Of a stretch of DNA of 64,000 nucleotides, positions 22,017 through 39,319 are shown piece by piece. A program made the position numbers and the translations under genes. The notes below the pieces were generated by a model. That model saw only the letters and a program-made list of their open reading frames with translations. It was not told the DNA's origin and made no database searches. Location: positions 1 through 64,000 of the forward strand of contig JAICUI010000008.1 in NCBI GenBank assembly GCA_025935925.1, given 5' to 3'. Numbering within the stretch: the first letter of the stretch is position 1; every line of letters begins with the position of its first letter. This stretch comes from Chloroflexota bacterium (GTDB lineage Bacteria > Chloroflexota > Limnocylindria > Limnocylindrales > CSP1-4).

Positions 22017-22093
22017 TGGTAGGGGAGCCAGGACTCGAACCTGGAACCGGCGGGATATAAGCCCGCAGCTCTGACCGATTGAGCTACTCCCCC
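22017..22093 (-). tRNA. tRNA-Ile with UAU anticodon, CCA encoded
   Basis: Read on the minus strand, the gene folds as a full cloverleaf: acceptor GGGGGAG/CTCCCCT (one G-T pair), D stem GCTC/GAGC, anticodon stem GCGGG/CCCGC, T arm CCAGG-TTCGAGT-CCTGG, discriminator A and an encoded CCA. The seven-base anticodon loop is CTTATAT, so positions 34-36 are UAU, which pairs with the AUA isoleucine codon. Most bacteria read AUA with tRNA-Ile2 whose CAU anticodon is modified to lysidine by TilS; a UAU-bearing tRNA-Ile is uncommon. AUA should be rare in this GC-rich DNA. The 140 bp upstream of the minus-strand gene pair (21874-22016) hold nothing else. Confidence 0.93.
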
Positions 22094-39068: not shown

Positions 39069-39319
39069 GGCTGGCTGTCTCCTTCCGGGCGCGGTCGCGC
39101 CCGAGTCGGACGGGGTCGGTCTCGCCATTGGCCCAGCGCGGTGGGTGTGGCGACCGGATCGGTGCGCCGCGCTGGTGGCACCTCCCCCGCGGAGTGCCGC
39201 CTCCCTGCTCGTAGCCGGAGTCTGCCGGACGGTCGCCACGCACGTCCAGCGGGTTCTCCCTGACGTCGGCGCTCCGGCGCGGCGGTTCGTCCCAGCCGCA
39301 GAACCGGCTTCCGCCGGGT

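Follow-up and report, generated by a model that had tools for sequence, protein, structure and literature searches.

The window, i.e., the whole 64,000-nt stretch of DNA that was analysed, contains a single tRNA gene called by ARAGORN, a tRNA-Ile(tat) on the minus strand (Table 1). The Rfam tRNA model RF00005 matches it with 69.5 bits (E 4e-13). The preliminary description of this DNA had given the UAU anticodon and both ends of the gene exactly as ARAGORN, Rfam and the cloverleaf place them, leaving the strand unstated. The order to which the window genome belongs consists of families f1 and f2 in our phylum survey, which covered 301 Chloroflexota genomes at least 85% complete.

Table 1. The tRNA-Ile(UAU) gene and its parts (positions in the window)
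Feature	Position	Strand	Basis
tRNA-Ile(UAU) gene (77 nt with its encoded 3' CCA)	22017..22093	-	ARAGORN, Rfam RF00005, homologues in 24/26 order members
Anticodon UAU (positions 34-36), U33 and A37 on either side	22057..22059	-	direct sequence reading; invariant in 19 order sequences
5' acceptor strand GGGGGAG	22087..22093	-	ARAGORN cloverleaf; partner CUCCCCU at 22021-22027
Discriminator A73	22020	-	ARAGORN cloverleaf
3' CCA	22017-22019	-	ARAGORN cloverleaf

In the ARAGORN cloverleaf, the acceptor stem GGGGGAG/CUCCCCU contains a G1-U72 wobble that also occurs in the genome's elongator tRNA-Met. The anticodon stem GCGGG/CCCGC is paired at all five positions and carries the loop C-U-[UAU]-A-U (CUUAUAU); C32-U33-UAU-A37 is invariant in 19 homologues from the order, while the stem is variable. 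Considering the complete stem, U33 and A37 in place and the invariant loop, a mis-fold that shifts the anticodon, which had been raised as a possibility, is unlikely. The cloverleaf was not obtained from a thermodynamic fold of the window tRNA alone; this is common for an unmodified tRNA and thus has no weight against the model scores.

The window genes that flank the tRNA have homologues flanking it in many other f1 loci, so its location is old in f1. The window also holds a c-di-GMP-II-GAG riboswitch match (39105-39194, minus strand), which at 41.5 bits is barely above the 40-bit threshold.

AUA had been expected to be rare, and among the window's likely genes it is very rare, accounting for 6 of 16,603 codons and for 0.9% of the isoleucine codons. 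In homology-filtered genes its frequency per 1000 codons is 0.30 for f1, 0.99 for f2 and 0.54 for G057, a genome with TilS.

Absence of tilS and of a tRNA-Ile2(CAU)

The preliminary description read the UAU anticodon as a sign of unusual AUA decoding, and considered that an intact tilS together with a tRNA-Ile2(CAU) would make this tRNA redundant. Both genes were searched for and both are absent from the window genome and from its order, which, together with the rarity of AUA, supports that reading.

The search for TilS used the models NCBIfam TIGR02432 and Pfam PF01171 with their cut-off. In the genus, family and order (41 genomes), neither model gave a match over cut-off, and all ten bacterial control genomes were positive. 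Among genomes at least 85% complete, TilS was found in 0/26 members of the order vs 15/15 genomes of other families of the same class. Weak matches of about 20 bits in relatives were rejected as TilS: they are short, N-terminal and far below cut-off, in frames of about 400-580 aa. At some of these places the MnmA model gives a weak match too, which is to be expected since MnmA is another PP-loop enzyme.

The site that tilS occupied can be located. The TilS-bearing genomes of the same class have the gene order tRNA-Met - tilS - ftsH; in nine sister genomes tilS adjoins tRNA-Met(CAU) or ftsH or sits between both, and in the eight that have both neighbours on the stretch, tilS lies in an interval of 1,033-1,496 nt that separates tRNA-Met from ftsH. 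In 19 genomes of the order (the window genome and 18 others), the distance from tRNA-Met to the following ftsH is no more than 275 nt, with no tilS; in the window genome the distance is 230 nt, on contig C66. Since the locus is assembled and empty in these 19 genomes, the missing tilS is not an assembly gap. Most genomes of family f42 likewise have tRNA-Met followed by ftsH without tilS. Two further members of the order, G066 and G283, have a gap of 1.2-1.3 kb at this place with no similarity to tilS; its content is most plausibly an antisense methyltransferase-like frame.

The tRNA genes agree with this picture, with the reservation that the window genome is a draft (3.3 Mb, 120 contigs, 87% complete). 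It has 42 tRNAs, two of them with a CAU anticodon, namely the initiator (C1xA72) and the elongator tRNA-Met, the latter nearly identical to that of TilS-bearing relatives; no CAU tRNA of the Ile2 type was found in it. Also missing from the assembly are tRNA-Ile(GAU) and some other tRNAs; as tRNA-Ile(GAU) is present in another member of the order, G015, the tRNA set of the window genome is incomplete. The better assembled G015 (20 contigs) has one tRNA-Ile(GAU), one tRNA-Ile(UAU) and two CAU tRNAs. The TilS-bearing G057 (7 contigs), from a sister family of the same class, has one tRNA-Ile(GAU), no UAU tRNA and three CAU tRNAs, the third being Ile2 with the acceptor GGGCCCA..UGGGCCC. The order as a whole has one elongator-type CAU tRNA per genome (23/26) or none (3/26) and never two, so that tRNA-Ile2(CAU) is found in 0/26, whereas two are present in 10/15 genomes of the sister families. 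Each f42, f69 and f9 genome tested has one.

The probable decoder of AUA and the source of its gene

To our knowledge, TilS is held essential in nearly all bacteria, and AUA is decoded in almost all of them by a modified CAU tRNA. We believe that in this genome tRNA-Ile(UAU) is very probably the only decoder of AUA, that it works without lysidine, and that it has replaced tRNA-Ile2(CAU) and TilS throughout the order; the genomic evidence described above points to this. The ancestor would have had the usual bacterial system, in which TilS turns the anticodon of tRNA-Ile2(CAU) into lysidine-AU. AUA would then have passed to a tRNA-Ile whose UAU is encoded in the genome, after which tRNA-Ile2(CAU) and tilS would have been lost, in the case of tilS by a clean loss between tRNA-Met and ftsH. 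The UAU tRNA would pair with AUA via U34:A, and the resident type-2 IleRS presumably charges it with isoleucine.

As to the source of the tRNA, mean identity per tRNA class was compared in 300 size-matched draws. For the UAU tRNA of the order it is 0.718 with elongator tRNA-Met and 0.681 with Ile2. It is tempting to propose that the gene came from Patescibacteria by horizontal transfer rather than by mutation of a resident tRNA, with the decoding mechanism unchanged: UAU tRNA-Ile is widespread there (L142-L258), some of those tRNAs are up to 89% identical to that of the order, and the order member G026 and Uhrbacteria L235 have nearly the whole tRNA body in common outside the acceptor stem. 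However, the nearest class is elongator tRNA-Met in 198 of the 300 draws vs the Patescibacteria UAU tRNA in 102, these tRNAs being too short to decide the matter, and the IleRS did not come along, as the Patescibacteria IleRS form a separate clade. We therefore regard transfer as rather unlikely, and leave the source undecided between a tRNA-Met-like and a Patescibacteria-like sequence. A joint transfer of IleRS and tRNA from Patescibacteria was considered as well and finds no support in the IleRS tree. For f42, f69 and f9 the situation is simpler: in the size-matched draws their UAU tRNAs come closest to Ile2, in keeping with a simple change of C34 to U.

One genome that keeps TilS, G183, has a tRNA(CAU) of Ile2-like sequence and a tRNA(UAU) in tandem on one contig (L544 = G183:C240, 1692-1766 and 1843-1917), about 77 nt apart and with nearly identical anticodon arms. 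This tandem is possibly a surviving intermediate of replacement.

That the UAU tRNA is a redundant backup, and that tilS and tRNA-Ile2 of a lysidine system were lost to incomplete assembly, could be argued from the 87% completeness of the window genome and its missing tRNAs, as well as from the five TilS-bearing genomes of the phylum that do have a UAU tRNA. We consider this most improbable: in the window genome, among others, the assembly spans the tilS locus and shows it to be empty, and the absence of TilS and of a second CAU tRNA from all 26 members of the order cannot be due to chance gaps at about 88-96% completeness.

A reassignment of AUA to methionine, with the UAU tRNA as a recruited elongator tRNA-Met that MetRS charges, a situation found in animal mitochondria, would agree with the similar acceptor stem, its G1-U72 and the place of elongator tRNA-Met among the two nearest classes, but hardly any probability can be given to it, because methionine is the commonest homologue residue at none of the 36 well-aligned AUA sites and makes up 2% of the residues aligned there vs 65% at AUG control sites. 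C34 is a main identity element in known MetRS recognition, which also counts against it. At these sites the commonest residue is I in 15 cases, L in 6, V in 6 and T in 3, so AUA means isoleucine; the sites are few per genome and come mostly from f2, the family with smaller genomes. Overlapping ORFs were filtered out, as antisense ORFs otherwise swamp the counts. The preferred reading remains an isoleucine tRNA that replaced the lysidine system.

Distribution and known systems

A strict UAU-tRNA pattern matches 34 of the 301 phylum genomes, and the reversed pattern, used as a control, matches one. In the order the pattern finds the tRNA in 21/26 genomes, and a covariance-model search raises this to the count in Table 1; it was not seen in G206 and G214 (88-89% complete), where the tilS site is empty as well. 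None of the 15 genomes from other families of the same class has it. TilS is over cut-off in 257/301 genomes of the phylum; the UAU tRNA is present in 32 of the 44 genomes without TilS vs 5 of the 257 with it. Families f42, f69 and f9, which lie outside the class, repeat the pattern, although no UAU tRNA was seen in two genomes of f42 and in one of f9. At least two replacements within the phylum, and probably four, follow from this. In six genomes TilS was not found and the best model matches include no UAU tRNA: G182 (1.0 Mb, 99% complete), G068, G119, G170, G275 and G312; gaps or diverged genes are possible there.

The preliminary description cited Mycoplasma mobile as one of a few bacteria with such a tRNA. 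The example is correct; the word "few" is not, as the tRNA is common in Patescibacteria, occurs in several Chloroflexota families and is found in some Bacteroidota (Pedobacter, Mucilaginibacter, Chitinophaga). A 2014 tRNADB-CE survey lists TAT anticodons in 19 species (PMC4013482). The TilS-independent decoding of AUA in M. mobile and hemoplasmas (Taniguchi 2013, NAR 41:2621) is summarised in PMC4014445, PMC4013482 and PMC4810244; as far as these summaries go, the likeness to the order is close, with tilS lost, the wobble C34 of tRNA-Ile replaced by U34 and AUA still read as isoleucine. M. mobile has a reduced parasite genome, whereas the order has genomes of 1-4 Mb, mostly GC-rich, and the trait is fixed order-wide. 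In Bacillus subtilis a tilS deletion is rescued by recruitment of a tRNA gene (Fabret 2011, as cited in PMC4810244). According to that citation, a UAU tRNA-Ile replaces the lysidine tRNA there too and TilS becomes dispensable, but as a laboratory suppressor, unlike the natural, old and completed replacement proposed here. The lysidine/TilS system, including ava2C (PMC11938285), performs the same task, i.e., AUA is read as isoleucine and AUG is not; it uses a modified C34 on a CAU tRNA, and the order lacks both the enzyme and that tRNA. The formation of ava2C as described still involves TilS (PMC11938285). The UAU tRNA-Ile of Patescibacteria has the same anticodon loop as that of the order, together with an IleRS without the C-terminal zinc finger; the differences are the small genomes (0.5-1.3 Mb) and the separate IleRS clade.

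The literature searched, with most subscription papers outside the search, contained no report on UAU tRNA-Ile or AUA decoding for Chloroflexota or Patescibacteria. The kind of replacement is already known from M. mobile and hemoplasmas; what is new here is how widely it has spread, how cleanly the site has been emptied, and that the IleRS is of type 2 and without the M. mobile switch domain. UAU decoding, previously known from a few reduced parasites, would be the norm in nearly a whole order with full-sized genomes, and the order and its close TilS-bearing relatives offer a natural before/after comparison of a sense codon changing its decoder.

Isoleucyl-tRNA synthetase and the wobble position

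The order has a type-2 IleRS, whose C-terminus matches Pfam DUF5915 and has no zinc finger; among solved structures it comes closest to PDB 8c8w (a bacterial IleRS), to the T. thermophilus enzyme (1ile) and to eukaryotic cytosolic IleRS. The type-2 class is related to eukaryotic cytosolic IleRS, which handles UAU-derived tRNA-Ile. In M. mobile, Taniguchi reportedly found in 2013 that charging of the UAU tRNA is made possible by an Arg in the zinc motif of the C-terminus, where E. coli has Trp905. This switch was rejected as an explanation for the order: its type-2 IleRS lacks the C-terminal zinc domain and with it the site, so that another solution is needed.

No C-terminal zinc finger was found in the IleRS recovered from UAU-bearing Chloroflexota, Patescibacteria and Bacteroidota, some of which are partial sequences; this suggests that type-2 IleRS tolerates U34. 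The phylum gives no contrast here, since TilS-bearing Chloroflexota also have type 2. In the IleRS tree the order stands beside f3, which is TilS-bearing, and f69, with all Patescibacteria in a separate clade, so its IleRS was inherited and not imported; f42, f69 and f9 do not cluster together. A broader proposal, possible though somewhat doubtful at present, is that type-2 IleRS takes U34 without a special substitution, that takeover by a UAU tRNA requires one mutational or transfer step, and that TilS has repeatedly become dispensable. If so, about four Chloroflexota lineages, and perhaps Patescibacteria as well, would each have lost TilS on their own, and the tandem of G183 would be an intermediate. 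Two points become testable, namely the U34 tolerance of type-2 IleRS and the protection of AUG from a UAU tRNA without lysidine.

The second point arises because a U34 tRNA should also tend to read AUG. M. mobile, where IleRS changes were needed and U34 is unmodified, avoids this reading at the ribosome level (PMC4014445). MnmE is over cut-off in 2 of 23 genomes, both from f69, and in none from the order, the sisters, f42 or f9, although MnmA is over cut-off in 22 of the 23. The xm5U34 pathway therefore seems absent from much of these groups, and no wobble modification that restricts reading of AUG can be named.

Several features of the IleRS sequences are recorded for completeness. No alignment column separates 17 TilS-less from 13 TilS-bearing Chloroflexota. 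In the motif EG-x-ARE the order has Asp vs Leu in the sisters (13/13); as a determinant, this is a lead only, since f69 has retained Leu and the residue varies in other UAU lineages. The window genome's own IleRS (L396:955-4287) belongs to a divergent branch (L375-L398) common to the TilS-bearing sisters, in which GWDTHGLP reads GFDCQGLW and KMSKS is unmatched, with MHKSWGN at the expected place. An insertion of about 40-50 residues between WMDWNDP and GSYFTF is present in 13/13 IleRS of the order (L389-L398, L428-L430), whereas the comparison showed none in the IleRS of the sisters or of other groups.
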